A program made the translations under genes and the position numbers. From Glandiceps talaboti (lineage: Eukaryota; Hemichordata; Enteropneusta; Spengelidae), in NCBI RefSeq assembly GCF_964340395.1, contig NC_135553.1:20384449-20448448 (forward strand): a stretch of DNA of 64,000 nucleotides. Reading direction: 5' to 3'. The notes under the pieces are model-generated. The model saw nothing but the letters and a program-made list of their open reading frames with translations. It was not told the DNA's origin and ran no database searches. This document shows positions 34,740-61,991 of the stretch, piece after piece (within the stretch, counting starts at the first letter, position 1; the number at the start of each line of letters is the position of its first letter).

Positions 34740-34774
34740 TGCGCATGCGTACCTCCGTTACAACCGCCATTTTC
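34740..34774 (+). promoter_or_regulatory. Survivin proximal promoter: NRF1-like and YY1-like sites
   Basis: TGCGCATGCGTA at 34740-34751 differs from the NRF1 consensus at a single position. CCGCCATTTT at 34765-34774 matches the YY1 core on the complement. They lie 42-76 bases before the survivin ATG, where such sites typically mark TATA-less housekeeping/cell-cycle promoters. Confidence 0.5.
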
Positions 34775-34815: not shown

Positions 34816-37800
34816 ATGATCAAAGTCAACCAAGATGACAAGGGCGAAGAACATTCTAAAGCCGAATTTTCGATGAATTCTGAAGCAAGCAGACTCGCAA
34901 CGTTCAATGATTGGCCCTTCGACGAAAATTGCACTTGTACTCCTGATAAGGTCAATGATATTTTGGTTGATTTGTGTGTTCAATGCACTGCGCTTTTGTG
35001 CTACATTGTCAATGTCAGCTACACAGGGGCGTGTAATATTTCTTAGATTGCTGTTTTCCTGGTCTACAGACTAAATATGACAACCTTTCGACTATATATT
35101 CCTACCTGTAAGGAAAAATATTTCTACTGGTATAGAGATTGATACATTTGTAGCAGCAGGATTTGGTACGATATTTTCCTAAGAAAACGGTAATGTAAGC
35201 AATAATACGTGCCCGGTGTATACTGGTATCTGTTCATGGTTGATACGGTGTAAACGTTGTTATTATTGCATTGGTGTATGTAGATATGTACACACTCTAT
35301 CCTCAGTAATATTCGGAAATCCATAAATTTCATGGCCAAACTTTTGGTCTGAACGGTCAACAGATAATCACTTGTGCTGTCTTACACGTGTGCTATATAT
35401 AATGTGAACATACAAAGGACAAAATCAAAAACGAATTATCAGATTATCAATCTGTGACATGCCTATATGAAGCCTGAAGGGAGAAGTTTAACGTTAGAAC
35501 AGTATCTACACATTGAAGGTGATTCATATTATCAGTTTTAACAGCTAGGGAGTTTAAACCTACCCCTGATTCCTAGCCTCTAACTTGAAATTGAATACAC
35601 AATGTGTATCTACATTGTCCACTCTTCTCCATTCTTACCAACACTTAATTCAAATTACCAATTTTTTTTTCTCTCCAATTCTAACAAAGTTGACTGTTTT
35701 CTTATCTTCAATCTGCTGAACATGTTTAGATGGCGGCAGCAGGATTCTACCATTGCCCAACAGAACAAGAACCAGACCTTGTTAAATGTTTTGTGTGTTT
35801 CAAAGAACTTGATGGCTGGGAACCAAATGATGATCCATGGTAAGCAATTGTTAGATAAAAGTAGTACAATCACAGACAAGTAATGTTTACTCGAGGCTAC
35901 GTTCCGACAATGGGAGAGGCCTTGTTGCCAAATCTGTTCTTACTTGTCTGTGGTACAATGTACTTCATTGAAGGTCTGTCACCTAGGAAGTGACAGTGCC
36001 AAGATCATCAGTGACAGAATCTCTGTTTCATCGCTTAGACTAAGTCTTACTTTGAGTACTTTAAATGATAGTAGAGCCATCAATAGACTGTAAGATACGT
36101 TGTGTTGTTCAGACCAACCAGGCTTCTAAACTTCTTAACTTCTTCTGGCTGATAGTGTGGCACGAATCATATTGCCAGACTAAGCCATCAAGAACTGCAA
36201 TGCCACTGAAAGAACAGTCAGTGATTTCATCAGTTTATCAAGATATTATATTATCAAACGATTTAATCTGTGAAAATAATTGCCCTTCTTGATAAGCAAT
36301 AGAAATCACAGTGTAAACAGAGATAGATTTATGCTAAATGATAATACAGGTATTTTTTTTAAAACGCTGTCTCTCATTTCATGATTTGTGAAATAAATTG
36401 TATACAGGGTACTGCAGTACTGCACAAACTACTAGAGTAAGTACCAGTAACCTCCCCCCCCCCCAAAAAAAAAAAAAAAAAAAAAAAAAAAATTCTTTCT
36501 GGTCAGGACATTTTGTCTAAAGTGTTATGACGATACAATTTTTTTTTTTTAATTGTCAAACCTTTCACCCAATCTACTATTTATGGAGGTTACTGTTCTT
36601 TTTATTTAGTATTTTAGAGCAAGTGTGTATGTGGGGCAGAAGTTCACGATTGGCTCTGCAGCTGTCTTCACTGAAGCAGCAATTAATGTAGGGAGGGTTA
36701 TTTTTGTGTTTTCCCTCAGATCTGCAGACTGCATAAGCTGGATAAACACGTGAAAAAAAAAATCGACGCAGGAGTATTTAAGTGACCAGAAACAATTCCT
36801 ATTTTTTGGGGCCTATTAGCAATTAGTGTAGAAGCTATCCATGGCTTTTTATCCTCTTCAATCTCTCTCTAACGTCTAGTCAAATGAATCTAATCAAGTG
36901 AAAATCTGCTAGCTTGACCACAAGCTGACAAAGTCATGTCAGTAGTAGTCCATCATATATTGACAGGGACTTGTAATTGGGTAATTCATTCACAAGAAAA
37001 ACAGATCCTAATATGCAACTTAAGTTTACATCATAGCATGTGGATGTGATAACGTTATCAAGGGCCCAATTGCATTAAATACAGCTGTTGGTGGTGGTAA
37101 TTTAAAATTTAAAATTTGATGTTGTTCTACATACATGGTACATACATACATACATACATACATACATACATACATACATACATACATACATACATACATA
37201 CATACATACATACACCCAGTTGACTTACATGTGAGAGAGATCGAAGAAGATCAAAACTATGGATATCATAGAGGCTAAATAGCAATGCACTAACTTCATG
37301 TATTGTAAAACATGTTGCAAATAAAATGTCAGTGTGTTATTTCCAGCTGACTGACCTAGACTCAATTCATCAAATCACGTAAAGTACATGTACTACATGT
37401 AAGAGCAGAGGCCATGACTAGTATCACAGCTTTTGATCTTGTGGAATTTTGTGATTAAACTGTTTACATTGATTTTACCCTTGACATTCAGTGTCGAATG
37501 TGAATGTCAAACTTTCCCTGCTATTAACAGGTGACTTATTTTCTTGAAACATGACACAAAAAGAAGTTCACAAGGAAATAGATATAAGTGTATCTGATAA
37601 CACGACTGACCCTAGTTTAAGCCCCCAAACATTTTTTTTGCATGCAAAAAGGTAAAACTGTAGCAAGTTACTTTTATTTCCCTGAACACCTTCATGCCTT
37701 TCCTTCATCTGTTCAAGTTGTCATCAATTTTTTAAAAAATTGTATTCCAAAGAGAAATTAGGTCTTTTTTGTAGACTGTAACAGTACAGTCTGCACAACG

Positions 37801-39696
37801 TGTTCGTCTACTAATAACTTATAATTGTCTTCACTTATCGAGTACTGGTACATCTTTTACACCTCATCAAACTCTCATGGAAGTATTCTGACCAACAAGT
37901 ATCTCATCTTGGGGTTGAAGTAATTGTGAAAAATTTAAAGTAAAATAAAACAAAATTCCGACCTACCTACTCTATTTTTTTGAAGTCATGTTATCGTAAA
38001 CAAACAACTATTTTTATTTTTTGCAGGCAAGAACATTTATCCCATTCAGGTCATTGTTCATTTCTTTCATTGAAAAAGAAAGGCGATGAAATGACATTGT
38101 CGGAATTCTTGAAACTAGAGTCACAAAGACAACAGAACAAACTTGTAAGTAAACTTTACAGACATGATGTTAAATATTATTAGTAATTGTGTTTGATTGG
38201 TAAATACCGGTGATTTGTAGCCTGGAGTGGAACTCAGTGTTTCCACTCACCAAATCGCAAAACACGAGAGAAAATCATGTTTGGCGAGAAGATTTTTGAT
38301 CCAATCAGCCAAACTTGGCAACCTACTATGTTTTAACATGGTCAATGATGTATCCATAGTAAATATCAACAGCTTATCAGTGTCGGATTATATCACATCT
38401 TTTTTCTTATTACTACATAAATGGAAAGTGTCAAATCCTCAAATGAGTTCTTTGAATGATGTTTTTAGCTAATCTAGCCATGTACTATAAAACAGGACAG
38501 GATGGATTTGAATGATGTTTTAGTTAATCTAGCCATGTACTATAAAACTGGACAGGATGGATTTGAATGACATTTTAGCTAATCTAGCCATGTACTATAA
38601 AACAGGACAGGATGGATTTGAATGATGTTTTAGTTAATCTAGCCATGTACTATAAAACTGGACAGGATGGATTTGAATGACATTTTAGCTAATCTAGCCA
38701 TGTACTATAAAACAGGACAGGATGGATTTGAATGATGTTTTAGCTAATCTAGCCATGTACTATAAAACAGGACAGGGTGGATTTGAAAGATGTTTTAGTT
38801 AATCTAGCCATATACTATAAAACAGGACAGGGTGGATTTGAAAGATGTTTTAGCTAATCTAGCCATATACTATAAAACAGGACAGGGTGGATTTGAAAGA
38901 TGTTTTAGTTAATCTAGCCATATACTATAAAACAGGACAGGGTGGATTTGAAAGATGTTTTAGTTAATCTAGCCATGTACTATAAAACAGGACAGGGTGG
39001 ATTTGAAAGACCAGTTGTTACCGGGAGCTATACTCCAATTTTGATGGAGGGCAATGTTTGTTTCAACATTAGTACAACTTGTTCACTAGCCTTGTACAGT
39101 GTCTAGTATGACAAATACATGTTTGTCACAACATTTTTGATGCCATCCCTGGGTTAACAGAAAGGTCTATTTCGTATTCCTACATGGTCCTTATAATATA
39201 ACAGTAACAACAACACTCACGACCATACTAGTTGATAACATCTCCTCCTCCTCTCCCACACATACAGACATATACTCAAGAGTAAGCATTACCCCTTTAG
39301 AGTAATCCATTTTATTTTTAAGTTTCTCATGACCCTACTGTCCCAGATGCCCAGAGTCCACAACAGAAAAATCCCAACTGAACTTCTAGTGAGATGGCGA
39401 CACAAGTTTGTAATCTGTTTGAAAATCATCATTTATAATTGCTGCAATTTGGGACTTCACTTAATCCAATGGTTCTTAGTTTCCAGCCGATTTTAATTGC
39501 CGTTTCTAAGGTATTCAGTATGTTTATAGTATCACCCAGTGTGTACCATACATACACACTTACCGAGTACTTCTTTATATATATATAAAAAAAAATCTTT
39601 TTCCTTGCTTTTCAGATGAAAATCACGGAAGCCAAAATAAAGGAATTCAAAGAACAATCGAAAGCAGTGAGAGAACAAATGGAATTACTGGCTTGA
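34816..39696 (+). CDS. BIRC5: Survivin (BIRC5), 147 aa, 4 exons
   Basis: Exons: 34816-34950, 35730-35839, 38027-38144 and 39616-39696. Exons 2 and 3 are 110 and 118 bases, the same sizes as I recall for human BIRC5, with the same phases. The single BIR domain spans about residues 23-97 and holds DWPF (33-36), the zinc ligands Cys65, Cys68, His85 and Cys92, and the FKEL-GWEP-DDP core. A helical C-terminus (about 105-147) is the part that, in survivin, binds borealin and INCENP in the chromosomal passenger complex. Thr42-Pro43 corresponds to the CDK1 site T34-P35 of the human protein. The role is therefore error correction at centromeres and cytokinesis, plus possible anti-apoptotic activity. 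The ATG at 34816 gives an N-terminus 8 residues longer than human before the BIR; a second in-frame ATG lies 19 codons on. The exon-1 donor (AAG|GTCAAT) is weak but required by homology. There is no RING or CARD, as expected. Confidence 0.96.
36448..36491 (+). repeat. C/A homopolymer run
   Basis: About ten C followed by about thirty A in survivin intron 2, immediately left of a MITE. Confidence 0.9.
36492..36796. mobile_element. MITE, family E, copy 1
   Basis: About 305 bp with short inverted ends (TTTCTGGTCAGG / GTGACCAGAAACAATT). It shares its whole interior with 43334-43618, including TTACTGTTCTTTTTATTTAG and GGGAGGGTTATTTT. In survivin intron 2. Confidence 0.85.
37135..37214 (+). repeat. 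(TACA)n microsatellite
   Basis: About 20 perfect units in survivin intron 2. Confidence 0.95.
37590..37980. mobile_element. Dispersed element, family O, inverted partial copy
   Basis: Complementary to 24,820-25,165: shared blocks include TTGCATGCAAAAA, TAACAGTACAGTCTG, ATAATTGTCTTC and TTTTACACCTCATCAAACTC. In survivin intron 2, ending about 45 bases before exon 3. Confidence 0.8.
38445..39012 (+). repeat. 55-bp minisatellite, about 10 copies
   Basis: The unit GATGGATTTGAATGATGTTT followed by TAGTTAATCTAGCCATGTAC and TATAAAACAGGACAG is repeated. Two sub-types alternate (GATGG/GAATG versus GGTGG/GAAAG), with the second confined to the distal half. In survivin intron 3. Confidence 0.95.
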
Positions 39697-40019
39697 TGAT
39701 CATCACAAATTTATCTCAAGTGGGAATTTATGGGGAAACTGATATGGTCTGATCTCTTAGGTGTCATATGTGCTTCAACGAGTACAAGAACATAAAGTTG
39801 GAACTAAGAACAAAATATTTGAAAGTAGTAGTTCCAGTTACCTGAGGCTAATAATAGCTCCATCATATATACTACTCTAAGCAATTGCTGGATCTAGGCT
39901 GTCATTAATCATGTCTGACATTTCTAGTTGCAAGATCAACAGTATATGTCAAACCATTCTATATGGACATTATTTTCCTGAACTTTTCATAAATTCAGTT
40001 TGAACCGGTGTAATTATAT
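39697..40019 (+). other. Survivin 3' UTR, presumed
   Basis: Follows the survivin stop. No poly(A) hexamer is obvious until 42438-42443 (AATAAA), so the transcript end is not fixed. Confidence 0.4.
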
Positions 40020-40176
40020 TACTTTCCAATATTTTTCTTCATTTTGTAAATCAATGAGAAAATACTCATGACTTAAGGGGTTCCGTTGTTACTACTTATC
40101 TGTAATTTGTAGTGACAAGGCCCCTTATGTCACTCGTTATTTTTCTTGGTTAAAAGAAGAAAAATATTGCGGACTA
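40020..40176. mobile_element. MITE, family D, copy 2
   Basis: Matches 13921-14072 in both arms: CCAATATTTTTCTTCATT and GAAGAAAAATATTG, with the CTTAAGGGG / CCCCTTATG core. Confidence 0.75.
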
Positions 40177-40223
40177 CAGTATAATTATCCAAATTCGCCA
40201 TTGTTGTTTTTGAACAATATCAA

Positions 40224-40540
40224 GGCTCAAAATTAAATTTTTTTTCTTTGGTAGTCCCAGTGGGCTACCAATTTTGAACAGAAAGTGGTAGCCCAAGAAT
40301 GGTGAGAAATAGTCCTATTAATAAGGCTATATTCCTGAACTGAAAACAGAGTTCCTGTATTGGAAATATGTGTGTTATTAAAATACTTTCATGTCCGTGG
40401 AATCTTCCAATGGTTCCATCCTTTAAATCATCACATAATTAGTGGTAGCCTGAGTGGGCTACCAGCTGCAAATTATGGTAGCCCCATGACAAGAATTGGT
40501 AGTCTGTGGACATGTGACTACTGTTAATTTCGAGCCATGA
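40224..40540. mobile_element. MITE-like element, family M, copy 1
   Basis: Ends GGCTCAAAATTAA and TTAATTTCGAGCC are inverted repeats. The interior carries repeated GTGGGCTACCA / TGGTAGCCC motifs. The right end recurs at 57380-57445. Confidence 0.65.
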
Positions 40541-41025
40541 GTAGTTGGGGGTGGGGGTGGGGGGGTGGGGGGTGGGGGAGTGATACAGTGATACCACTGC
40601 CAAGACCTACGTATGGGTTATATTGTTTTCATACTTAAACTATGTCTGTCTCTAAAATTTACGTGTGTTGATTTCTTTTTTCACCACTCTGTTGATTTCC
40701 AGTTTTGAAGATTTTCAGTGTGTTAGACTATTGTAGATTTTGTAATCTGCTTCACAGAACATTTCAATCTGAGTTCCTTGTATATATATACACATTGTCA
40801 TTTATCTGTACATTTACGTTGGCGATATCATGCAGTATCCACTTACACTGCCAAGTCATAATATTTTTGAGAGTAATGAGAGTGCATTTCCATGAACAAT
40901 TTTCGCATGGGATCAACCTTACTCGTTGATCTTTGGAAGTATTTAGACATGTGTCTAGAAATATCAGTTTGTAATGACCTCAATATTTTGATAATACTCA
41001 TTGCAGGACACTTATTAGATATTTG
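40541..41025. other. No gene recognised
   Basis: Includes a G-rich tract (40,547-40,580) and otherwise plain AT-rich sequence. Confidence 0.4.
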
Positions 41026-41203
41026 GGGACGATTGTACACAATGTCGCACAAGCTCAATAAATGAACTTCGTTCATTATAAGTAAATTTTAGTCAATATT
41101 CCAGTAGTAAATACAGGGCTTGTTATCATTGAAGGCATGAAAGTTTTTCAAAATTTGGTTAAAGGTGCAAAAAATGAAGTTTAGCAGTCACGTTGATGCC
41201 AGA

Positions 41204-41234
<31 letters not shown>

Positions 41235-41278
41235 GTTTGTTTATTGAGCTTGTGTGACATTGTGTGCAATTGTCTCTT
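41026..41278. mobile_element. MITE, family H, short copy
   Basis: Inverted ends of about 33 bp: ACACAATGTCGCACAAGCTC on the left and GAGCTTGTGTGACATTGTGT on the right. The interior (CAGTAGTAAATACAG, TGTTATCATTGAAGGCATGA) matches 51,560-51,600 and 62,490-62,530. A run of about 24 C sits at 41,204-41,227. Confidence 0.85.
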
Positions 41279-41700
41279 AGTTTTTATCTTTTACATTTGG
41301 AATGTCATATGTTTGCTGATCAAAAAATGTTGTACTTCAACATACTCTGACTCTCAAAAATTTAGACAAATCTTGACAGGACAGTAATTTATTCTTCAAA
41401 TAACTGCCACTGATTCAGTACTTGAAATATCGTCACAAAGTATACCGATAGTGTTTTTTTCACCATTTGCATTTCATATACAGTATGTGTTTACACTTTT
41501 GACTTTCAGTGTTGGATCTAAAAACAGTTTCATATCAAACTGATATATATATATTGTATTTTGTAAACCTGTGGGTTGTATGCATATTTTGATCATTGAG
41601 CAATGACAGGTATATGTATATACAAGTAAAACAAGTAACTTTCAAGGTCAGATTGTAAGATATGAGAGAATGAATGTTCATGGACTCTGGGTTCATATTT

Positions 41701-41983
41701 TTACTAATGAAAATTTCTACACACAGAGTCAAAAAACTTTCTTGGAAGCGAATCCAAAATTTGTGCTGACATCTTGTAAACATCGCCAGGGGTGTACTAC
41801 AATGGGCTGATCTACTGAAGCCCACCACTTCAAACCTGATGGCAGGCATGGAGTGGAAGGGTCCCAGTACTATGCCAGCTGTTTATCTCAAGCTCACTGT
41901 AGTACACAGCATTATCAGCGAAAATTTCGGATTTGCTTTCAAGAAATTTTAGACTCTGTGAGTTGAAATTTCATTACTAAAAC
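41701..41983. mobile_element. MITE with nested palindrome, family N
   Basis: Inverted ends of about 54 bp: TTACTAATGAAAATTTCTAC at left and GAAATTTCATTACTAA at right, both containing ACAGAGTC / GACTCTGTG. Inside lies a second inverted pair, GTGTACTACAATGGGCT and AGCTCACTGTAGTACAC. Confidence 0.82.
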
Positions 41984-42437
41984 TGTAAGATATGTCGTAT
42001 CATTGAACCCGAATTAGTCTTCTCTTTATGTGCTGGTTGATAGGGCAGTATGACACGATGTATCTTACAGTGTTGTGCAAGGTCTCCCTAAAAACAGAAA
42101 TACTAGTTAATACAAGTTTTATCAACAGTTACTGCTATTTAACTAGCATAATTTAATATGCTAGCATGATATGTATCTTATGCACTTCTCACAAGTACTG
42201 CCAATTCCTATGCCATCTTTTTGTCTGTCTTCTTTGCTGTACACATTGTATAGTTTGTATTTTTTTATACTAATGACTTCTCTTTTATATACTGTTTAGT
42301 ATTTTTTGTACTTTTCTACTTCACAAATCTACCGACACTGCCGTTTCTACTCACTTTGATGTTGTATTTAGTAGTTCTATGCCAATGAGAGTTCCGAGTT
42401 GAAAAATTTAGAGAAAATATATATAGATTGTATGTGA

Positions 42438-42443
42438 AATAAA
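42438..42443 (+). terminator. Candidate poly(A) signal
   Basis: AATAAA on the plus strand 2.7 kb after the survivin stop. It could end a long survivin 3' UTR, but several MITEs intervene, so the assignment is weak. Confidence 0.25.
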
Positions 42444-42499
42444 TCTTTTTAAACAATGAAAAGGAAGTCTGTCACAGTGTGTGGAATGTTGATTTATTT

Positions 42500-43330
42500 T
42501 TATGTATACACTATGTATGAATTCTCGGTACCTGCAATAGACTTTCAACCTCATTCTAGAGGATCAAAATGAAACAAGTACATGTAGGTTGACTTATTCT
42601 CACACATCAATACTAATGCATGGCGTAATGTACATGTTTGTCAACTAAGAAATCAAATGTTCGTTATTTTCACAACACACCTGACCTACCCGAATTCTCA
42701 GCTCCGACATCAAAAAATATTTTTTTTTTGCCCTCTCTTAATTTTGTGAGGTGCCCTCTATGGCAAGAATAAGCAAATATCTGGATTGTTGACATCATCT
42801 ACAGTCATGGCAGCGACGATGACACTTGTTCATGAACAGAGCATTTCTTACATATGACAGAAGTTATTCAAGTAGGAGGCTGAGAACATGCCAAATTGTG
42901 TAGAGAAGCTGGGAAAGGGTTTGTTACCAGGAATCCAATAAAAAGAAGATAGAGAGGAGGAAAAGGAGAGGCAGAGAAATATGGAGAATATGATTTTTAT
43001 TTTTTTTTTATAAATTGACCGACCGACCCATAGTTGCCATGAAAAAGTAATGAGAAACATAAAAAAAATAGGGTCACCCTTATGGGTATGTGAACATTTC
43101 TTAGAGCTGTCTTATCAGTTAATTAGATAAGTATAAATTGGTCAAAGTTAATGAAGAATTGAATTGAATTATTTTCTAAAAAGAATTCACGGTTTTATTA
43201 TCCCGGTCACATGTACCAGCTAGTAATAAACCTCTGTATTTGGTATATCTACCAAGTTGCTTTTGTATCTACAGAAAATGAAATTATTAGTTTATAGAAC
43301 TTGCCATGATTAGATTAAAAAAGAAAGAAA
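42500..43330. other. Intergenic, no gene recognised
   Basis: Plain AT-rich sequence with a few purine runs near 42,950. Confidence 0.4.
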
Positions 43331-43333
43331 AAG

Positions 43334-43618
43334 AATTGTTTCTGGTCAGGACATTTTAACACAAATTCTTTTTTTTTTAATTCTCAACAAACCTGTCACT
43401 CAGTGTACTATTTATGACAGTTACGGTTCTTTTTATTTAGTTCTTTAGAGCAAGTGTGTATGTGGAGCAAATGTCATTTGCTTGTTCTTGATTGGCTCTG
43501 CAGTTGTCTTCACTGAAGTAGGGAGGGTTATTTTGTGTTTCCCCCTAGATCTGCACGGGCTAGACAAACATACACAAAAAAGACCGACATGAGGGTATTT
43601 TAGTGACCAGAAACAATT
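43334..43618. mobile_element. MITE, family E, copy 2
   Basis: Full-length relative of 36492-36796, with ends AATTGTTTCTGGTCAGG and GTGACCAGAAACAATT as clear inverted repeats. Confidence 0.88.
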
Positions 43619-44334
43619 TATTTCTTTTTGGCCTTACTGGATATTGATATTATCAGTATATGATTTTCATTATCTGAGGTCACTTTTTAATGTGTCATCT
43701 TTTGATTGATCTAGCAAAAAAAATAAAATTCTTATCAACATTAGTTATTTGTATGCAAATCAGATTATGACGTGCATCTATTTATGGAATGAAAATGAGA
43801 CTTCAAGTACAAGTTAATGACATCCTGTAATTGTTGATTTCCTTGCTATCTTTCCTCATTCATCATCAGCATCATCAGCATCATTATTATAAAACTTGGC
43901 ACATTTCAGTATGATCTCACAGCTGATTAGCTTTCAATGCATAATTGTACAATATATTGCAGTAAATGTGGGTTTGATTGTAGCAGTCATATTAGGTACC
44001 GGAAATTGGAAGTCACTCAAGGTTGTTTAGCTAATTATGCCTTACTTGTGATTCCAATTCTCACCTACAAACATTCTTCATTCCAGTCAGTCTCAGCTCC
44101 AAAATAAATGGTTTTCAAATCTATGATAAATCTTGTTATTTTTGCTTATAAAAACTGAAAAGCTTAAAAAATCATGAATGCAATTGAAACCATATATATA
44201 TATTGGAAGACACCTTTTTTTCCTTGAAAAAAAATAGTTTTGGATGAAATACTGCAACAATGGATTCATCTGAATATGAAATCATTATGTCCTGTTTCTA
44301 AGCTATTATCCTCATTCTTTATATATTTATTCTT

Positions 44335-44337
<3 letters not shown>

Positions 44338-44412
<75 letters not shown>
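44338..44412 (+). repeat. (AT)n microsatellite, left
   Basis: About 37 AT units immediately left of the 71-bp inverted repeat. Confidence 0.95.
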
Positions 44413-44416
<4 letters not shown>

Positions 44417-44569
44417 TTGGTAGTACTGGAACTCTTTCTTGGGTGTAACTCGGAGTTTCACGCATATTGCGATCATCAGACACTCATCAGACACATCAGT
44501 GTCTGATGATCGCAATATGCGTGAAACTCCGAGTTACACCCAAGAAAGAGTTCCAGTACTACCAAAACT
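44413..44569. mobile_element. Perfect 71-bp inverted repeat with 15-base loop
   Basis: Arm 44413-44483 (starts AGTTTTGGTAGTACTGGAAC, ends GATCATCAGACAC) and arm 44499-44569 are exact reverse complements as far as I can read. The 15-base spacer partly repeats TCATCAGACACATCA. It is bounded on the left, and 50 bases on the right, by (AT)n tracts. It looks like a recent foldback insertion or hairpin element. Confidence 0.9.
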
Positions 44570-44617
44570 ATTACGCTCTGCCACTGCGGTATAGAGCACT
44601 GTCTTAGCAGATTGATA

Positions 44618-44620
<3 letters not shown>

Positions 44621-44672
<52 letters not shown>
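44621..44672 (+). repeat. (AT)n microsatellite, right
   Basis: About 26 AT units, 50 bases to the right of the perfect inverted repeat. Confidence 0.95.
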
Positions 44673-44676
<4 letters not shown>

Positions 44677-44868
44677 GACCAACATTGTTGATGTACAACA
44701 GTGCATCTCAGCTACACATTGCACAATTACATGATTTCTCATATTCTCGCACACAAATAAGACAATCTGTCACTTGAATATACTGGCAGGTAAAGGTGTG
44801 TGGGTGTCAATCTGATAAAAATCTGATGTAGTAAACTTGGTGCGATTTTTTATTTACCTTCTGCTTTT

Positions 44869-45060
44869 ATTGTTCTGTGAGTGCCTTGCACTCTTTTCGA
44901 ACCGAGCATTTTGAGGCACTGTACCGTGTACACACCTGTATGTTTCGTTGCATTGTGCATTCTCATTGGTTGAGTAAATCCACTCAGTCAGGGCTTGAGA
45001 TTTGTACGAGAACTCCTATGGTATTGTGTCAGATGTAGGTATCAGACACTCACAGAACAA
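44869..45060. mobile_element. MITE, family F, copy 2
   Basis: Left TGTTCTGTGAGTGCC, right GACACTCACAGAACA. Contains GGTATTGTGTCAGATGTA like the copy at 25742; shortened internally. Confidence 0.78.
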
Positions 45061-46298
45061 AAAAAGAACAAACAGCAAAAAAAGTAGGAGGGAAATATGG
45101 GAATCGTGTAGAGTTCACTACATCAGATTGGTGTGTAGGCTGTGTACTTGTATCTACCTGTACATGACTTCTAGGACAGACATCTACGTGGAATGTAAAC
45201 AGGTGGTTAGGAGAAGCATTATGTTATATGAAATATTAGACTGTAATGATGTCATCGGTCCGCACTCATGCAGCCTGGGGAAAAGGGAGTTTAGACAGCG
45301 CCCACAACGGCTGATCTGTTAGTCTAATAAATGTGGCTTGGTATAGATTTCATGGATTTTGTATTGAATGTATTACTCAATCACTTTATCCTTAATGGTA
45401 GAGCATACATGGTATGGTGAACAGTTCAGTATGCAGGAGTTCCAGTAAAATGTTCATTGAAGTCTGACAATGAATCAATGCTTGATACCATAGAAAGTTG
45501 TGTATATTAATCATTTGAATTCCATATGCCATTGAAGCAAAACAAAAAACAACTTGATTAGAAAGGAAACCATTATTGCTGCAATCACAGTAATTGTGTT
45601 AATTTTCTATTGATTGTACAATAGGTTAAGTCCCCAGAATATGTCCAATCGTACTCCAGAAAGGTGTAACTGTAGTTTTATGAAAACGAAAGTTTGATGA
45701 ATGTATTATTCACCAATAGAGGGCAGTATTACATGTGAAACTCTGTTTTAACCTGATTCAAGACTACACACTACACTATACTGACTTCCATATATTCCAT
45801 TACAAATCTGTATCTTGAGTCCCAGGTATAGTAGTGGTTGTTCACTTTGCAATTCAATTGATCAAGGAAAGTGGCTGGGATTTCACATAATTTCTTTGTT
45901 TTTACAGTACCTTCTCAGAACCATGCAGAACACCTGGTTCTGGTTTGTTCTATTTTCTAAAAGTCTTGTCATTCTTAGATTATGCACAGATTGAAACCTC
46001 AAAACTGCTTTCATAATCTTTGGTTGAAATGATCAAAAATAGAAAACACTGCAAAGTTTCAGCACATGAAAAAATATGATATTTTAATTTTCAAAAAAAA
46101 TGAATATTACACATTATATACATCAGGCTTATACATGTTTTGATCTCAAGCAAATTTGTATAAATTTTCTGAGATAAATTGTGTTGAACTGTACATGTTA
46201 CTGGCAGAAGTGACTGAACATGAAATAAACTGAAACTGAAACAAAAATATTGTTTCCCATGTCTCAAAATGATAAACATACAGGAATGTATGTTTCAC
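45061..46298. other. Intergenic between survivin and CFAP184
   Basis: No gene recognised. A 106-codon plus frame (45,002-45,322) begins inside a MITE and has no protein features. Confidence 0.45.
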
Positions 46299-46304
46299 TT
46301 TATT
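46299..46304 (-). terminator. Candidate poly(A) signal, CFAP184
   Basis: AATAAA on the minus strand about 260 bases after the CFAP184 stop codon. Confidence 0.4.
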
Positions 46305-46444
46305 ATAATAGTAGAAGAGCCAATTATGCATTAATATTTACATATCATTATTTTGAAAACAAATAGTTGTTCTGGATTCTTAGAAATACCTACAATGTCT
46401 AGATGTAAAGATGTCAACTGAGCTAGTGCTAAGCTCTAAATCCT

Positions 46445-46506
<62 letters not shown>
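46445..46506 (+). repeat. (TG)n microsatellite
   Basis: About 31 TG units in the presumed 3' UTR of CFAP184. Confidence 0.95.
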
Positions 46507-46510
<4 letters not shown>

Positions 46511-46562
46511 TGTATGCATGTGTAGTGTGCATGTGTGCTTGTGTGTTTCTTTTTGCTAAAAA

Positions 46563-52376: not shown

Positions 52377-52433
<57 letters not shown>

Positions 52434-54112
52434 CATGCATGCACAGACACACACATACACATGCACACACATCTTCACAGCAGACTGGATTGTCCCAGTA
52501 GGAAGCTTTCTCTTCACTCACTGAGTAGAAAGAATGCTCACCAGTTTGACCCTTAAATTCCTCAAGCCCTATACGGAGCCTACAAACACATGTATACACA
52601 TTGTCAGAGTATCTTAAAAAAACACAATTATTTGCATTTACATATATCATATCATACCTTCGGCACCCTCAGCTGGAGCAGGTTTTTCACCATCCACTTC
52701 ATCACCATCAGCAGGAGCTGCAGCAGCTTCCTCCCCCTCTGCAGGTGCAGCAGCAGGTTCTGCACCATCACCTTCTCCCTCAACAGGAGCTGCTGCCTCT
52801 CCTTCAGCAGCTACCGTTTCTCCTCCTTCTGCAGGTGCTTCACCCTCCTCTGCAGGTTTTTCCTCACCCTCAGCTGGTGCAGCTTCTGTTGCTTCAGCAG
52901 GGGCTGCATCATCTACGACAGTGGGGATAAAAATATATGAGAATCTGCACAAAAGGCACATTTTTCTTTCAAAAAGATTTGAAAATGTCAACAAAATGCT
53001 CTGAATGATGTGTTAATACCATCCACTTTCCAGTTCAACTCTGCCACAAAATATGGATAACCTCAGATGATGTCAGATTGAAGTATATTCCATGACATAA
53101 CCCCACTCTATCACTATGACAGGTAATCCAAATTACCACATCTGGATTCAATAACCAACGCTTACAGCTTTCATGTCAGTCACAGTACTAATTTATCGGT
53201 AACATGTTTAAAAGCTCTAGGAGAAATAAACTAACATAGATTTAAATACTGGTACTAACCAGCTGGAGGAGGTTGTTCTTCAGTTGGTGCAGCTGCTGCT
53301 TCTTCACCACCACCCTCTGCCTCAGCTGGTGCTGCGTCTGGTGCTGCAGCCTCTTCTGTCGGTGGTGGTACTTCTTGACCCTCTTGGGCTTCACCATTTG
53401 TTTCGGGTGCTGCAGCCTAGTAAACAAACAGTGAATATAAAAATCTTTGCTGTTTTCTCACAAATTAAAAGGTGTGCTGTTGATAATTTCTGATTACATT
53501 TTTTTTGTATTTGGAACAATATTTACATAAATTAATGTCTAGTTTTCTGTTTTGATTAGGACCGTTTAAATTCAAGGCCTCACTAAACAGATGTAACACA
53601 TCATTTCTGTAATTCGTAACTTCAGATCCACTTTCTCTATCTGTTGACAGTTAAATATACCCCTCCCCCCACCACCGCCCCAACAATAAGAATAAATGAA
53701 TGAATAATATTTACATAAAACTGTAACATGTGATACTTTTATGCTGAAGTTATGGTGCGGTGAAATTAGATGTGGTGCGAAAAATTACATATATATTTTT
53801 TCTCTCCAATTGTATTTCTATTTTATCAAGACGGCGTGCCTGCATTCACCATAATCAAATCCAAGTAACTGCACTCCACTCGAGCACTCGTATCCCATAC
53901 CTCACACATACGAAAGTCTGGGGAAGAACATTATTACATTTTGTAGGGCTTCACTCTATTGTACATACGGTCACACATGATACTTTGGATATTTTGATAG
54001 AAATAAGTTATGTATACATTCGCTTGGTAATAAAGTATCTTTGGGGACACAATTATCGGAAAATTTCCAAAGAACTACAAGAATCAGTTGGTCTTACCTG
54101 ATCGTCAGCCAT
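46563..54112 (-). CDS. CFAP184: Cilia- and flagella-associated protein 184 (CCDC96), 647 aa, 10 exons
   Basis: Exons in transcript order: 54098-54112, 53260-53416, 52658-52912, 51777-52247, 51119-51219, 50222-50375, 49249-49442, 48466-48678, 47234-47371 and 46563-46808. All have GT-AG ends and consistent phases. Residues 1-332 are low-complexity: Ala/Pro/Glu/Gly repeats such as APAEGEE and EGEKPEGE, then a run of Glu (EEEEEEEE) in exon 5. Residues 333-647 are coiled coil. The signature block GLHLIDFEQLKIENQTYNEK followed by the IEERNEELLKLRKKI stretch is the CCDC96/CCDC113 domain (DUF4201). The long acidic N-terminus points to CCDC96 rather than CCDC113. In ciliates and mammals CCDC96 and CCDC113 form a complex on axonemal doublets near radial spoke 3 and the nexin-dynein regulatory complex, tuning beat. 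Human CCDC96 is about 555 aa; the extra length here is mainly in the acidic repeats. Exon 1 has just five codons (MADDQ). Confidence 0.93.
47484..47716. mobile_element. Foldback MITE, family C, copy 2
   Basis: Left GACTCTCTCACAGTCT, right GATTGTGAGAGAGTCTA. The interior ACAATTATGCAGTAGATATC is identical to the copy at 18302-18632. Within the intron before CFAP184 exon 9. Confidence 0.8.
48049..48400. mobile_element. Foldback MITE, family I, copy 1
   Basis: About 350 bp, palindromic throughout: the left arm has AACCTGTTACAAACAGGG and ATAAGAACAGTTTTATG, and the right arm has CATAAAACTGTTCTTAT and CCCTGTTTGTAACAGGTT. The right end stops about 65 bases from CFAP184 exon 8. Relatives are at 61003-61330 and 50855-50998. 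Confidence 0.88.
50430..50759. mobile_element. MITE, family A, copy 2
   Basis: About 330 bp. Left CCGGTAATCCAGCCTTCGG, right GCCTCAACTACCAGGGTAA. Near full-length match to 16438-16759 in the same orientation. Lies in the CFAP184 intron, beginning 55 bases upstream of exon 6. Confidence 0.88.
50855..50998. mobile_element. Foldback MITE, family I, half copy
   Basis: Shares GTTCTTATCAAA-ATGG, GTACTTC-AACATG and TAATCCAATTCAATTGTTTG with the right arms of the copies at 48049 and 61003. Confidence 0.65.
51318..51705. mobile_element. MITE, family H, long copy
   Basis: Ends GTCACACAAACTCAATAA and AGTTTGTTTATTGAGCTG are inverted. The interior GAAACCCAGCACTGTATATC and CAGTAGTAAATACAGAACCT is shared with 62,425-62,520. 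In the CFAP184 intron upstream of exon 5. Confidence 0.82.
52378..52431 (+). repeat. (AC)n microsatellite
   Basis: About 27 AC units plus decayed ATGC and ACAC units, in the intron between CFAP184 exons 3 and 4. Confidence 0.95.
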
Positions 54113-54342
54113 TTTCGCTTCTGTCACTGTTGTCATGGATTGTCATGTGACCAAAACACTGTCTGATGCACTGCGCCCTCAATGTTGTCAAAATGTCGCT
54201 CTCGCGATAGTTTCCGAGATTGAATTTTTACCGCGAATTTTTGAGTTTGGCTTTGTCAGCTTCAGTGTAGCGTCTCCAGCACCCATATTGAGTGTGTATA
54301 TTTCTTTTCAGTTAATTTATTTCCGATACTGCAAATTGCAAG
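54113..54342. promoter_or_regulatory. Bidirectional CFAP184/TK1 promoter
   Basis: Only 230 bases separate the two divergent start codons. Visible motifs: GTTGTCATGG at 54129-54138, a half-match to the RFX X-box used by ciliary genes; TCTCGCGA at 54200-54207; and TTTACCGCGAA at 54227-54237, which on the complement (TTCGCGGTAAA) resembles an E2F site, as expected for S-phase TK1. There is no TATA box. The motif assignments are by eye. Confidence 0.6.
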
Positions 54343-57300
54343 ATGATGTCGTGTGTTAGCACCTCAGATGTGATCAGTGAGTGTAAGAAGGGTCAAATTC
54401 AGGTGAGATTACCTATTTGGTGGAATTTTTTCGCCTTATTTTGAGACCGGTCGTAAAGCCTGGCTGGCGCCTAGGTTTCATTGTACACTTTGATATCTAT
54501 ATTGTTTGCAAAATAGTGTTTTTCCCCCATTTCTAATCGACATTGAAATAGCATCGATTGAATGGTTAGTTCTAGATCATATAAATTTACTATGTTAGTA
54601 GACACTCGAAATTTGATTTGGTAAAAAAAATATGCTAAGATTAAGAATATATAGCAACCTTGCCAAGGCCAGGGAAGCCACAAAACGGCGCCAAAAATCG
54701 TGCGACTGAAATTCAACTATCAGATAAAAATTGACTCTCAAACTTACACCTCGTGTGAAAAGACGTTTTTTTAATTTGTAATCTAAACAGGTCACGGAAA
54801 AATATCATCAGTAAGTTCAATATTGTATTTTGAATTGTTATAACATTTTCAGAAATCATTTTTTTTTGTTATTTTGAATAATTTTGGTGGTCCTTTTTTT
54901 TTTTATAAATCGCAGGTTATATTTGGACCAATGTTCTCTGGCAAAACGTAAGTAATAAAAGTTCGTTTGTAGTAGAGTTGAAAACAAAATCATTGCATGG
55001 GACCATCTGTTAGTGTTACTATACTTGGCTGACCATTATAATTTATACATGTATTTATACCTCTATGATCAATATCATTCATGGTGTGATTGTTACTAAA
55101 CAACAATACATAGGTACTAACACTACTAATATAATTCTCTAAATGCAATCATGATCTCAAGACTAGCAAAATATCATGCAACTATTCAATGGTATTAAAA
55201 TTTGCTACTATAGTTATCCATGGATGTATTAGTGATAATACATCCATGGATAATACATCCATCCCAGTCTCTTGTCTATCGAACAATTTATACATTTTTT
55301 CTCTCATTCATTTATCAATTATCATGTATATGATATCAGTGAGTGAATTATATCATTAACTTTATTATATACAAGCTGATTAAAAGTAATCATAATATCG
55401 TAGGGGTAGGAACAGTGCAGATGGTGTATGGGAGTCGATACTGACAATGTCCCCCAACAAGGAGAGGGACAATGTCAATAACAAAATCAAATCCCAACTT
55501 ATTCCGTCTGCAAGCAGGACTACATACCTCCATGCATATCTATAATATAATCAAGTAAAAAGTAAGGTGTTCAGGATAGGTTAACGTATCCCCTGACTTT
55601 CACTTGCTATGCCAAACTACAAGTGATTGAATGTACAATTTCCCCACTAGTATGTATAAATACTTGTATACTTGTACTTATTTTTGTTTTTAATTTTATG
55701 ATTTTTTTGTGCTGAGAATAGCTCCCAGTGATTTTATGTTGTGCCAACGTATACACACAATGCTAGAGATCCATTCAAGTTTAGGACTATATGTGACAGG
55801 GCTATGTTGCACACTCCATATCACTGCAAACTGGCTTGCAAACATAGCACGTGCGGGCTCTGTGTGACTCTTGAGTAATAGTCCCTGACTTTTCGAGTCA
55901 TTACTCCAGGACATAGTCAGAATGTATTCTTTATCAATTTCATTATATTTTGGATTGGCTAGAACTGAACTAATCAGGAGGATAAAGAGATTTCAGATTG
56001 CCAATCATAGCTGCCTTATTATCAAATACGCCAAAGATGACAGGTATGACAAGAATGGTGTCGCCACCCATGATAGGTATGTATACTTTAATGTAACACC
56101 TTGGGCACAATATAATATTAGATGACAGGGGGCAGTGAATCTAAGATGGTCTTTGTATCGATGTCATTTGATTTCATTCATATGTAGATTAATAATAAAT
56201 TTGTACTGACATACTGCTGCAAATATCTGATATACTGGCTGCAGGCAATAAGGCGTAAAAAAATTGTGTGGTTCTGATTACATTCAATAATAGGTGGGGC
56301 AGGTAGATTTTTTTTTTATTATTATTTTTTTTTTCATGTGAGTGTCTAGTTCAATTTTTCCATTGTTTTCCAAATGGTTTCTGTTGTTTATTTCTTCCTA
56401 TCAGATGTACAGCCATTACAGATTGGAAGAAAAGTTTTATATTGTCTTTTGAAGTTGATGTCAGTTTCTGCATCCAATATTTCTTGTGAGACTTCATGAT
56501 TTTCGCGATTTTATTTTTATTTTTCTCGAATATGTAAAAAAAAAAGTTTACGGTCGGCGTGAAAAACTAGGTGGGGGTTGGGTAACCAGAACCAAACAAC
56601 TTTTTTTTATATGGCCTTAGCGAAAATTTCAGGATTAGAATATGTTGCCAGTAGCAGAACTTTGATTGTAATAAATGCAACTTTTGCTCATAGTCACATC
56701 ATCCTTCAAAGACTTATTGTGGAAAGGATAAGTTGTAAAAATTTACTAGTAGTAATACAAGTAGCTGTGGAACAGTACTGATTGCATTGTTGGTGACAAT
56801 CACCTGGGCTCTGTGTTGATTTAAATGAAGCGCTTTACATCGCACCACAGGACTTCTAATGATATATAATGAAGGCTCTTTAATAGAAAACACTGGTCAC
56901 AACCAGTTAGCCCTCTATAGTCTAAGCCATTGTTCGACATGCCACTGATTCACACAATCTCAAGTGATGCAACAAAATTTGGTGTTCCCCTTATCTCTTG
57001 CTACTTATACAAGAAATCTCAATTTGTCTAATTTTGACTCACAACAAAATTTGGCTTTCGTTAGAGGGCACACTGGTCACAACTAACAAATGCAATACAA
57101 GTATTTATCCTAGATTTAAAATATATTTATTTCAGAGAGGTGAAAGCTGCAATTTCTGCGAATGAACTTCATGAAGTCAAAAATACAGCATTGAAGTATG
57201 ATGTCATCGGTATTGATGAAGGCCAATTTGTAAGTACTACCTGGTAGTAAGTTCCTACAAAACACATAAAATTATTAATTACTTATTGATTTAAAGGATG

Positions 57301-60300
57301 GAAGATTTACAGACTTTTTTCCACAAGAGGAACTCTATTTTCAGTTCAGAAATACATATATAGGACTATTGGTTACCTATCCTTTCTGGAATTGGTAGCC
57401 CACTAAGACTACCAAATAAAAAAGTTAATTTCAAGCCCTGATAGTCATCATAGATGTGATACATATACTGCAAACCTAGAGATTTTCGCAATAAGAAAAT
57501 GTAACGATTTTACAGTTTTCAGCTATTTTTCAAAGGCTAATTATCACTAATTACCAGACTGGTACAATGTGTTCATATACAAGAAGGCATTTTAGTCACT
57601 ACTTATTTTCAAAATCTTCTTTTCCACCCAAACTAAGTCTTCAGAGAAAATTTTCAGGTTTACAGTTTTGTATTGTTCATAATTTCCAATTTTTTGTCAA
57701 ATATGCACTAAAATATTGAGATGTCGTCAATGAAATCTGGGAGAAAATAGATCTGTTTATTTACAGTTGTTTCTGTTGTATGATCTTCTCCCCATTAGTT
57801 CCCAGACTGTGTAGAGTTCAGTGAGGAGATGGCAGACAAAGGAAAGAAAGTTATTGTAGCGGCTTTGGACGGAACGTTCCAGAGAAAAGTAAGTTATCTA
57901 TGTATAGTAATTGTACAGAGTTTGGAAATCTGTAGATGCCTGTTTGCTATAAATCAAACTCAATATATTTTTTTTAAACACATGGCAATAAAGTATCTGT
58001 ATCTGTATCAGTAGTGTACCAGTACTAGTACACAATATGCTGTATGACACTTTGCTCTCTGGGCCAATTTGACGAATCATTGATACACACCACAGCAATA
58101 TCTTGTGATACACTGACATTTGGTGTTCCCATATACCTTACTACGAAGTGACTTGCAAAGAAACACATTTTAAAGATTTCCAGCCACAAAAGATTTTGGG
58201 CATGCTGTTTTAATACCCATTGATACCCACTCTGCCGTCAGTTTTGAAAGAAGTGTTGTATGAGGGCGCTGTACATTATGGTAGACATTGATCCAACCTA
58301 ATCACCTATCATCTTTGTTGACAAGACAACTTGTCACCTTTCCTCCAATGGCACATAGAGTGATAAACATTAATGATTTGCTGGGAGGTACTGAAATATC
58401 AAATGTATAATTTATATAGTCTTTGTGATAAAAATACCTAAAGATATGTTTTTCACTTTGTACCCTTCAAGTGCCTCTTCTGTCCCCAAAAACAGTGCAC
58501 AGTCAAACCTTGTATGTACGAATAGCATGGGACTAGGGAATCCCTATTTCGTTATAACTGTACTAACACTGGGGGCGCTATTCACCATATATGTATACTT
58601 CAACTATGATATCTTACTCTACAGGGTTTTGGCAATATTCTAAATCTGGTCCCCTTGGCAGAGAGTGTAATTAAACTAAATGCTGTATGCATGCATTGTT
58701 ATAGTGAAGCGGCCTACACAAAGAGAATAGGAGCTGAGACTGCTGTAAGTACGATCAGCTGATTATGTTGTCTCTGAATTTTGCAGACATGCATTGTACG
58801 CCACTTTAAAGTGGCAATATGGACGAGGATTGGGTATTTATTTTTGATTTTTAATTCACAAAGCAATTTTATCATAGCTTCCTACTTCAAAAATCAATGT
58901 GAAACAACATGCCAAGTCATTGTTTGTAACTCGATAAATGGCAAACGACTGATAAATGCGTAAAATGTTATTGTATGTACAATAACAAACTTTTGTACTC
59001 ACTTTTAGCTTTTTGCAATGTATTGAGTTACAAACACAGACTTGGTCTATGTTGTTTCACATTGATTTTTCAAGTAGGAAGCCATGATAAAATTGCTTTG
59101 TGAATTAAAAATCCAAAATAAATACCCAATCCTCATCCATATGACCACTTTAAATGAATGTGAAGTGAAAGAAGTTAATCCTCTGATACAATCAGTACAA
59201 TGTACATACACTTAACACTGCAAATTGCAATATGGTCTATTTTCCAGTTCCAGGATATATGGGGGGGGGGGGGGGTGTTGCTTATATTGTTACTTTAGAC
59301 TTGGTTTGTCTTTTACATATGAAATAACATTTTCGTCATGAAATGATGGCAAGACACATTGACCTTGAATTGTGAGTGATTTTTAAATGCAATGAATGAC
59401 ACAGAAGGATTTTACTGGTAAATTGTAGGATACAGTCAGGTAATAACCAGTGTGCCCTCTAAGCCAATTTGAGGCGCCACTGATTGATATGCACACACTT
59501 TCTAGTGATGCACCAAAATTTGGCGTTCCCCTATCTCTTACTATGTGGTGACTCACAAGAAATCCCAGTTTTTCTCATTTTTGACTCAACAAAGTTTTGC
59601 TATCGTTAGAGGGCACATCAGTGCATGCAAAGGCTCCTACTTGTACAGACTGCATGCCATTGTATGTGTAGACACAGTGTGTCATGGGACCAGCAACTGG
59701 TCTATTCACAAGTGATTGACGTTTGTTTGTCTGCAATGTGACAAAAGATAGTGACATGAATGATGTAAGTGTTCTGTACTGGTCAATGGCCAGGTTATCA
59801 ACTGTGTAATCTAGGGTCAGACAAAGACTCTTAAAAAATCTGAACAACTGCTTGAAGACAATAATTGTCAATGTAGGGTTTTTGTTAAGGGCCGCCGATA
59901 AGCAGGTAAAATCTACCAGGGTTCTCAAGTAATTTTACCGATGTTCCCACACAAAATTATAGATTGCATAGGAAACTATGCAACTTTTATCCCTTTCTAA
60001 CACCATCTTTCCCCCGCTTTTCTGTTATTGTTCCCCAACCTGAGCAAAAAAAATTGTAGCTCCATAGTATTCTGTGAGATTTTATGACTTTTTTGTCCAC
60101 TGTAAATTAAACTGTTGTATACTTCAATTTTTGATCCTTTCAGGTTGAAATCATAGGAGGCACTGACAAGTACCTGGCAGCATGCAGAGATTGCTATCAC
60201 CTACCAATCAGTCACCATACACACGAAGAAACACCACTTCAAAATGTTACTACTAGTTCCAAAACTAATACTAATACAAACAATGTTCAGGGTAGAAAAC

Positions 60301-60365
60301 TATTCAAAGACTCACCAAAGAAAAACAAGAAAGAAAATAGACCACTAGAGACAGAAACTGCTTGA
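54343..60365 (+). CDS. TK1: Thymidine kinase 1, cytosolic (243 aa, 7 exons)
   Basis: Exons: 54343-54402, 54916-54947, 55963-56076, 57136-57229, 57799-57888, 58625-58744 and 60144-60365, all in phase. Exon lengths 32, 94, 90 and 120 agree with what I recall for vertebrate TK1. The enzyme transfers phosphate from ATP to thymidine in the salvage pathway that feeds dTTP pools in S phase. Features: P-loop GPMFSGKT (residues 24-31), the DEGQFFPD block with catalytic Glu97, [10 protein letters not shown] (about 121-130), the NLVPLAES segment that precedes the lasso, and zinc ligands Cys152/Cys155 and Cys184/Cys187. The C-terminal tail ends in a basic run and a KEN box at 233-235, the signal for APC/C-Cdh1 destruction at mitotic exit. 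Human TK1 is 234 aa. ATG-ATG starts at 54343; either may be used. Confidence 0.97.
55212..55251. repeat. Perfect 18-bp hairpin
   Basis: TTATCCATGGATGTATTA, a 4-base GTGA loop, then the exact complement. Followed by another TACATCCAT copy. In TK1 intron 2. Confidence 0.85.
56285..56590. mobile_element. Dispersed element, family O, left-half copy
   Basis: Matches 24,590-24,850: GGCAGGTAGATTTTTTTTT, CAGATGTACAGCCATTACAG and TTTGAAGTTGATGTCAGTTT. In TK1 intron 3. Confidence 0.78.
56893..57088. mobile_element. MITE, family J, copy 1
   Basis: Left CTGGTCACAACCAGTTAG..CCCTCTA, right GTTAGAGGGCACACTGGTCA. The interior ACAAAATTTGGTGTTCCCC is shared with 59447-59622. In TK1 intron 3. Confidence 0.8.
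57380..57445. mobile_element. MITE-like element, family M, fragment
   Basis: GGTAGCCCACTAAGACTACC and AGTTAATTTCAAGCC match the end of the element at 40224-40540. In TK1 intron 4. Confidence 0.55.
57467..57672. mobile_element. MITE, family L, copy 1
   Basis: Inverted ends ACTGCAAACCTAGAGATTTT and AAAATTTTCAGGTTTACAGT. The interior TAATTACCAGACTGGT and ACAAGAAGGCA is shared with 61578-61795. In TK1 intron 4. Confidence 0.8.
58036..58172. mobile_element. MITE, family J, degraded copy
   Basis: GCTCTCTGGGCCAATTTGA, ATACACTGACATTTGGTGTT and CTTACTA match the copies at 56893 and 59447; the right end is lost. In TK1 intron 5. Confidence 0.6.
58810..59149. mobile_element. Foldback MITE, family B, copy 2, with TTAA duplication
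   Basis: 340 bp. The ends AGTGGCAATATGG-CGAGGA and TCCTCATCCATATGACCACT are inverted and the arms pair along most of the length, with the palindromic TTATTGTATGTACAATAA inside. TTAA flanks both sides (58806-58809 and 59150-59153), consistent with target-site duplication. In TK1 intron 6. Confidence 0.9.
59447..59622. mobile_element. MITE, family J, copy 2
   Basis: Left GTGTGCCCTCTAAGCC, right CGTTAGAGGGCACA. Full relative of the copy at 56893-57088. In TK1 intron 6. Confidence 0.82.
59878..60057. mobile_element. MITE, family K, copy 2
   Basis: Shares GTTTTTGTTAAGGG, AAGCAGGTAA-ATCTAC and ACTATGCAACTTTTATCCCT with 15376-15540. In TK1 intron 6, ending about 85 bases before exon 7. Confidence 0.78.
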
Positions 60366-60534
60366 TGTTATCAGAAAGTCTGCGAGTGGAGAGGTCATTG
60401 CGCTTTAGTATTTTATAATAGTCAATTTATATTTTCATGTATCATGAAATATTACTGTATTTGTCCAAAAATCAAAAAATGTTTATCGTATAATCTGGTT
60501 TCTTTTTGACTTTTTTTAGTGCATAGGTGAAAGT

Positions 60535-60683
60535 AATAAAATTACTATTGTTTGTAGGATTTTGAATTCATTGGCAATATTTTTTAGCAATACTAGATAG
60601 AGTAAGACATGTCAGGCAGATTTTATATACATTAGAAAACTGATAATTTTTTTTGCAGTGATTACTTTTAGAACTAAAATAAA
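60535..60683 (+). terminator. Candidate TK1 poly(A) signals
   Basis: AATAAA at 60535-60540 and again at 60678-60683, 170 and 313 bases after the TK1 stop. Confidence 0.6.
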
Positions 60684-61002
60684 ATTTAGTTTAGTTTTCA
60701 TTTAGACTTTATAAGGTGAATGCTAATTTAATATATTTCCCCCCCCCCCCAAAAAAAAAAACAACAACAAACAAACAAACTACTGTGCATGTTTGAATTG
60801 AGAGATGGTGAGACTTTCTCTGGCAGGGAAATTCAATGGAGGACAAAGACTGTCTGAGATATGTATGTATTGAGAGCAGACTGCTCTCGCCATATGATAT
60901 GTCTACTTCCTGATACAACAATGGCAGAGAACAGACACAAACTACAACTACCAGTACATTGCAACATGTCGATATATATGCTAATACTGGACATTGATGT
61001 AC

Positions 61003-61330
61003 AACTGCCGACATCAGACCGTGGACGAACGGAACCTCTTACAAACAGTAATACAAGTCTCTGTACTTCTAACACGCTGTGCCAAGTATTATTAATCCAA
61101 TTCAGTTGTGTATTTTCACTTGCATCATTTGTCAGAAACAAATTTCCAGTTCACCCTAGCATTTCATGTACACATAAAGAGACCATAAAACTGTTCTTAT
61201 CAGACCATGGTGTGTATTACAATTACAGGTCTCTGTTATTCAATTGGATTAAGAACATTTGGCACAGCATGTTTACTTTCCCAGTTTGTAACAGGTTCTG
61301 TTCGTCCATGGTCTGGTGTCAGCAGTTGTA
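61003..61330. mobile_element. Foldback MITE, family I, copy 2
   Basis: About 330 bp palindrome: left GACATCAGACCGTGGACGAAC, right GTTCGTCCATGGTCTGGTGTC. Shares TTTCATGTACACATAAAGAG and CATAAAACTGTTCTTATCA with 48049-48400. Confidence 0.88.
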
Positions 61331-61795: not shown

Positions 61796-61991
61796 TCAGT
61801 TTGTGTCCGACTTAGTATGCTGTTTCCATGGTAACAATATTTTATTAAATGAGCACATTTTCAGCGATGAATTTTAACCATTTCAAGGAATGAACTTCAG
61901 TGGAATACTTCATTTTATTAATCGAAATTATCAAATACTGAAATAACTAATGAAGTACTTAAAACAATAGGACTCTGGTTCTATTTATTGG

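Follow-up and report, generated by a model that had tools for sequence, protein, structure and literature searches.

Survivin and thymidine kinase 1 in the hemichordate Glandiceps talaboti: a probable two-gene remnant of ancestral linkage with a ciliary gene head to head with TK1

The stretch of DNA analysed here (the window) comprises 64,000 nucleotides of Glandiceps talaboti contig NC_135553.1 (GCF_964340395.1), positions 20,384,449-20,448,448 of the forward strand, with a GC content of about 35.5% and patchy CpG depletion, both in keeping with an invertebrate animal. Genes for survivin (BIRC5) and thymidine kinase 1 (TK1) lie on its plus strand, and a gene for the ciliary protein CFAP184 (CCDC96) lies between them on the minus strand (Table 1). 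The spliced models place 14,646 bp between the survivin stop codon and the TK1 ATG, in agreement with a preliminary description of the two genes as lying about 15 kb apart on one strand. The outer limits given there coincide with the ends of the two coding regions: 34816 is where the survivin ATG begins and 60365 is where the TK1 stop codon finishes.

Table 1. Features of the window, numbered from its first base.
Feature	Position	Strand	Basis and remarks
Open frame	3552-5753	+	734 codons; charged, coiled-coil-like by eye
Rhodopsin-type receptor	11303-12394	-	Complete 7tm_1 domain in one open frame; Pfam E 6.1e-39
LITAF-like genes (two)	About 16255-14796 and 22635-21305	-	Proline/tyrosine-rich N-terminal parts; frame-level evidence
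Tandem arrays	22896-24022; 29229-29702; 62965-63195		Periods of 27/54/81, 35 and 32 bases, respectively
TGCGCATGCG, taken as an NRF1-like word	34740-34749	+	Motif scan; 67-76 bp 5' of the survivin start codon
BIRC5/survivin coding sequence	34816-39696	+	Splice model; 4 coding exons, 147 aa to stop
Survivin coding exons	34816-34950, 35730-35839, 38027-38144, 39616-39696	+	135, 110, 118 and 81 bases
Tandem repeat in survivin intron 3	38451-39007		About 10 copies of a 55-base unit, 95% matches
CFAP184/CCDC96 coding sequence	54112-46563	-	Splice model; 10 coding exons, GT-AG; 647 aa
CFAP184 first coding exon	54112-54098	-	15 bases; sequence signals, without similarity support
CFAP184-TK1 start-codon gap, putative divergent promoter	54113-54342	.	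230 bp; splice models, motif scan
TCTCGCGA, taken as a BANP/Kaiso-like core	54200-54207	+	Motif scan; inside the CFAP184-TK1 gap
TK1 coding sequence	54343-60365	+	Splice model; 7 coding exons, 243 aa
TK1 coding exons	54343-54402, 54916-54947, 55963-56076, 57136-57229, 57799-57888, 58625-58744, 60144-60365	+	GT-AG

The best solved-structure match of the survivin model in a phmmer search was survivin 1e31 (E 1.2e-48), a chain which we take to be human, and the Pfam BIR profile matched at E 4.1e-24. Its introns are GT-AG, the first donor (GTCAAT) being weak, and a stop codon lies in frame 5' of the ATG. With human survivin as query, three of the four exons were found in the window by tblastn and all four by phmmer against open reading frames, the fourth at no better than E 0.18. 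The lengths of exon 2 (110 bases) and exon 3 (118 bases) are presumably the same in human BIRC5. For TK1, an early model without exon 1 had as its top solved-structure match the thymidine kinase 2orv (phmmer, E 2.7e-70), presumably the human enzyme, and the full model matched the Pfam TK profile at E 1.5e-68. A human TK1 query that did not cover exon 1 matched all six other exons by tblastn, and human TK1 likewise has seven exons. Both genes named in the preliminary description, survivin and cytosolic thymidine kinase, thus appear to be present, their orthology, like that of CFAP184, being assigned by similarity and not by trees.

The identity of the gene between them comes from its C-terminal 324 residues, which matched the CCDC96 chains 9fqr (E 8.8e-79) and 8j07 (E 1e-73) by phmmer, while chains named CCDC113 were far poorer (E 2.6e-17 at best). 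The Pfam profile CCDC113_CCDC96_CC matched at E 5.3e-46, and the N-terminal part given by the splice model is long, acidic and alanine-rich. Because an in-frame stop codon immediately precedes exon 2, a start exon further upstream is required. The exon chosen was picked by eye and then tested against all ATG-to-donor candidates, five of which lie in 53450-56500; a donor score of 8/9 was reached only for the ATGs at 54112 and 54136, which use a common donor at 54098. As this 15-base exon has no support from similarity, the head-to-head spacing is fixed solely by sequence signals.

In these coding models, CFAP184 and TK1 are on opposite strands with start codons less than 1 kb apart, which is the spacing of a divergent gene pair, and the alternative ATGs at 54136 and 54346 give gaps of 206-233 bp. 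The gap has a CpG observed/expected ratio of 1.02 and contains 10 CpG, the 95th percentile of the window being 10 CpG per 250 bp. The BANP/Kaiso-like core TCTCGCGA occurs in a single copy in the window, both strands scanned. The adjacent mouse genes Afmid and Tk are divergently transcribed, with 170 bp between their ATGs, and where a reporter took the place of Afmid exon 2, Tk fell by 52% in kidney and by 94% in liver (PMC4728350). The CFAP184 and TK1 start codons resemble this pair in their opposite strands, their spacing of about 230 bp and their CpG-rich gap; the partner, however, is CFAP184, and promoter sharing with TK1 is putative. Human AFMID and TK1 are both among 415 tabulated p53-p21-RB targets (PMC9090780), which would fit AFMID sharing the promoter of TK1. 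Within an open-access literature collection, no article was found that joins TK1 and AFMID with the phrase 'bidirectional promoter'.

AFMID itself was sought in the window. A reconstructed human AFMID query gave no tblastn match in the window at E up to 1, in the same run that recovered three of the four survivin exons and all six TK1 exons covered by the TK1 query. Over 2,084 reading frames of at least 20 codons, phmmer matches stayed at chance level, the best values being E 1.6 for the human and E 4.3 for a fly query. The reconstructed human sequence retrieves kynurenine formamidase 4e11, which we take to be the fly enzyme, as its first match (E 8.7e-27). This negative result is nonetheless weak, since AFMID is less conserved than TK1 and the human query was a reconstructed sequence. 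Furthermore, short exons can be missed by phmmer against open reading frames, as TK1 exon 2 scored E 0.53 beside a chance match at 0.57.

The preliminary description had also called human BIRC5 and TK1 near neighbours, and published work agrees: the neighbours of GLY1 in both human and mouse include SYNGR2, BIRC5 and TK1, and mouse Gly1 is placed between Birc5 and Socs3 (PMC555945). The genes listed in another study as co-altered with SOCS3 in tumours (TMEM235, BIRC5, TK1, AFMID, C17ORF99, SYNGR2, TMC8 and others) fit one neighbourhood, but the list is not a map (PMC9122507). In the open-access collection, no article was found that treats BIRC5, TK1 and AFMID together with synteny, or microsynteny together with thymidine kinase and survivin. 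We take the mammalian cluster at 17q25.3 (mouse 11E2) to run SYNGR2-TK1-AFMID-BIRC5-SOCS3, with TK1 on the minus and AFMID and BIRC5 on the plus strand in human.

Several differences from the mammalian cluster are evident. CFAP184 stands where human has AFMID, as the preliminary description had noted while overlooking its head-to-head setting with TK1, and survivin lies on the strand of TK1, whereas in human it is presumably on the opposite one. Apart from these genes, the gene-like loci seen in the window comprise a rhodopsin-type receptor, a long open frame and the LITAF-like pair. The known common members are BIRC5 and TK1 only, AFMID being the one further member of the cluster that was sought by name. 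The likeness consists of BIRC5 near TK1 here too (PMC555945) and of a single intervening gene that is head to head with TK1 (PMC4728350 for mouse Afmid). BIRC5 presumably lies on the far side of AFMID. Provided that the human order is as given above, the succession TK1, head-to-head partner, survivin is common to both lineages. With an unrelated partner and survivin in reversed orientation, the two arrangements would be separated by no less than an exchange of partner plus one inversion, or by other rearrangements. As such, the head-to-head partner of TK1 seems to differ between lineages while BIRC5 remains near.

The remainder of the window provides some additional observations. Among the best 60 of 379 matches of the receptor to solved structures, chains of cannabinoid receptor 1 came first (E 2.1e-22), and histamine H2, opioid, adrenergic and lysophospholipid receptors followed closely. 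In both LITAF-like genes an intron splits the zinc-ribbon domain near profile position 38. Human LITAF presumably lies at 16p13, and we take 16p13 (LITAF, SOCS1) to be paralogous to 17q25 (BIRC5, SOCS3); as a lead, the LITAF-like genes near survivin and TK1 may reflect one ancestral linkage group. The available text of PMC1867822 does not address LITAF, SOCS1, BIRC5 or SOCS3. No Pfam profile matched the 734-codon open frame at E up to 0.1. The first and the last of the three tandem arrays are open in several frames and are likely to be minisatellites rather than genes. CpG observed/expected per 4 kb is 0.57-0.94 over 1-16000 and 0.22-0.56 over 16-60 kb, a contrast such as mosaic gene-body methylation of invertebrates would give.

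Frame-wide Pfam scans, with stop codons written as X, covered both strands of 1-34800 and 60001-64000, the plus strand of 40001-46499 and the minus strand of 39697-46562, and these intervals only. They detected LITAF halves, but the 7tm_1 domain and one LITAF half went unnoticed, although these matched at E 6.1e-39 and E 2.7e-7, respectively, when their frames were scanned alone; negatives of these scans are therefore unused as evidence. A local phmmer search with the 7tm_1 open frame as its own query matched inside the X-filled frame, a self-match which is no test of the Pfam filters and from which it follows that the letters are present in that frame. The HMMER composition filter is our guess at the cause of the missed domains.

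To compare the control regions of survivin and TK1, words present both in a 300-base stretch directly 5' of survivin and in the 230-base gap between CFAP184 and TK1 were counted on both strands, with 500 stretches of the window as controls. The two promoter regions have 28 7-mers in common (control mean 25.46, with 214 of 500 controls reaching 28), 8 8-mers (mean 7.71; 242 of 500 reaching 8) and 2 9-mers (mean 2.27; 271 of 500 reaching 2). A motif scan with 15 patterns, made post hoc, found no match to CCAAT, two E2F patterns or the X-box in either promoter. Human-derived patterns may not suit this species, so the motif result is an absence of support and not a disproof. The survivin promoter matched one CHR-like hexamer (0.68 expected), a YY1-like word and the NRF1-like word TGCGCATGCG, which was matched by two of the 15 patterns and is the sole match to GCGCA[TC]GCG in the window, both strands scanned. 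On the CFAP184/TK1 side, the hits were the BANP-like core and, across the ATG of CFAP184, a YY1-like word. The rare motifs differ between the survivin and TK1 promoters. The pairing looks inherited and not jointly controlled, given that an unrelated cilium gene stands between the two, back to back with TK1.

The proximity of the two genes was set against a chance model in which 20,000 genes are in random order and a pair has two or fewer intervening genes. The named pair would then arise with a probability of about 0.0003, any of the three pairs among three clear orthologues with 0.0009 and any of the 21 pairs from the seven gene-like loci of the window with 0.006, an overall chance of about 0.06-0.6%, while for a single ancestral linkage group with 800 to 200 genes, once fully scrambled, the figure is 0.7-3% per pair; the survivin-TK1 pair was picked by eye as striking, and this selection adds to all of these figures. 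A study of 49 genomes defines a microsyntenic block by at least three orthologues, with no more than five genes intervening, and reports 70 blocks inherited by vertebrates, compared with counts of 110, 120 and 124 for shuffled genomes (PMC8851819). Since shuffled genomes give more blocks than vertebrates inherited, matches between vertebrates and invertebrates need care. The linkage described here resembles the ancient blocks of that study in being apparently kept over a large distance with no strict collinearity, but it has two common orthologues where three or more are asked for, and thus falls below the block definition (PMC8851819). Nevertheless, inherited proximity is likelier than coincidence, because the linkage is found here and in human and mouse and is rare under random order. 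With two lineages compared, common descent of the survivin-TK1 proximity is favoured.

Four accounts of this proximity can be weighed. Part of the earlier interpretation, the linkage here and in human and mouse, holds; the other part, that one S/G2-M regulatory domain serves both genes or that breakage is selected against, finds no backing in the analysis. A genomic regulatory block combines conserved noncoding elements with a developmental regulator whose enhancers lie in a bystander gene, and BIRC5 and TK1 are not known to be developmental transcription factors. That a common cell-cycle domain keeps the two genes together, with breaks selected against, is very unlikely in our judgement: the sharing of 7-, 8- and 9-mers is at background, neither promoter has a CCAAT or E2F match, the one CHR-like hexamer at survivin compares with 0.68 expected, a ciliary gene intervenes, and both the partner and, presumably, the strand of survivin are unlike those of mammals. 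In favour of such a domain, survivin and TK1 are both cell-cycle genes, human TK1 being an RB-E2F gene and also a DREAM target and human BIRC5 a DREAM target via CDE/CHR sites (PMC9090780), and gene-dense microsyntenic blocks are reported to be more co-expressed than random blocks (PMC8851819). Coincidence would mean that survivin and TK1 belonged to one ancestral linkage group and drew near independently here and in vertebrates. The shuffled-genome counts (PMC8851819), the differing partner and strand and the 0.7-3% per pair for a scrambled group lend this some weight. Such a per-pair probability is still low and the window offers just seven gene-like loci, or 21 pairs, and we regard independent approach as a minority possibility.

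Selection could instead keep TK1 by its head-to-head partner, with survivin as a passenger on the partner's far side. Divergent genes with a short gap are frequent in animals, and the pair itself is not conserved, as CFAP184 and AFMID are unrelated proteins; we think this account improbable. It draws on the presence of a head-to-head partner at about 230 bp here and at 170 bp in mouse, on the CpG-rich gap with a motif that occurs once in 64 kb, and on the fall of mouse Tk when Afmid is disturbed (PMC4728350). Doubtful too is a related proposal, in which the conserved entity would be not a survivin-TK1 domain but a divergent TK1 promoter keeping an exchangeable head-to-head neighbour (AFMID in mammals, CFAP184 here), with TK1 and survivin flanking it. 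In that case, a cell-cycle promoter would have come to serve a ciliary gene in the one lineage and a gene of tryptophan catabolism in the other.

The reading that we consider probable, if by no means certain, is that survivin and TK1 are a two-gene remnant of ancestral linkage with no common control region, that CFAP184-TK1 is the likely functional unit and that the partner of TK1 has been exchanged. Gene identities by similarity, order, strands, spacing and the background-level word sharing of the promoters are direct results, and the mammalian linkage (PMC555945) and mouse Afmid/Tk spacing (PMC4728350) are taken from published work. On this remnant reading, the two genes would have been close in an ancestor that this animal shares with mammals, and would not yet have parted. 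Their proximity would last mainly since rearrangements have left a short interval unbroken, and not through a common control region. The unit likeliest to be functional would be the head-to-head pair CFAP184-TK1, which may share one putative divergent promoter of about 230 bp; the mammalian partner of TK1 is AFMID, and the partner would have been exchanged in one lineage.

Should other invertebrates prove to have the pair, it would be one more case of proximity kept since before vertebrates. More generally, the linkage of two cell-cycle genes should not be taken for co-regulation before the content between them has been examined. The possible partner swap is the interesting part of what is otherwise an ordinary remnant of ancestral linkage, and the exchange of the TK1 partner would provide a test of whether divergent promoters stay units while the second gene changes.
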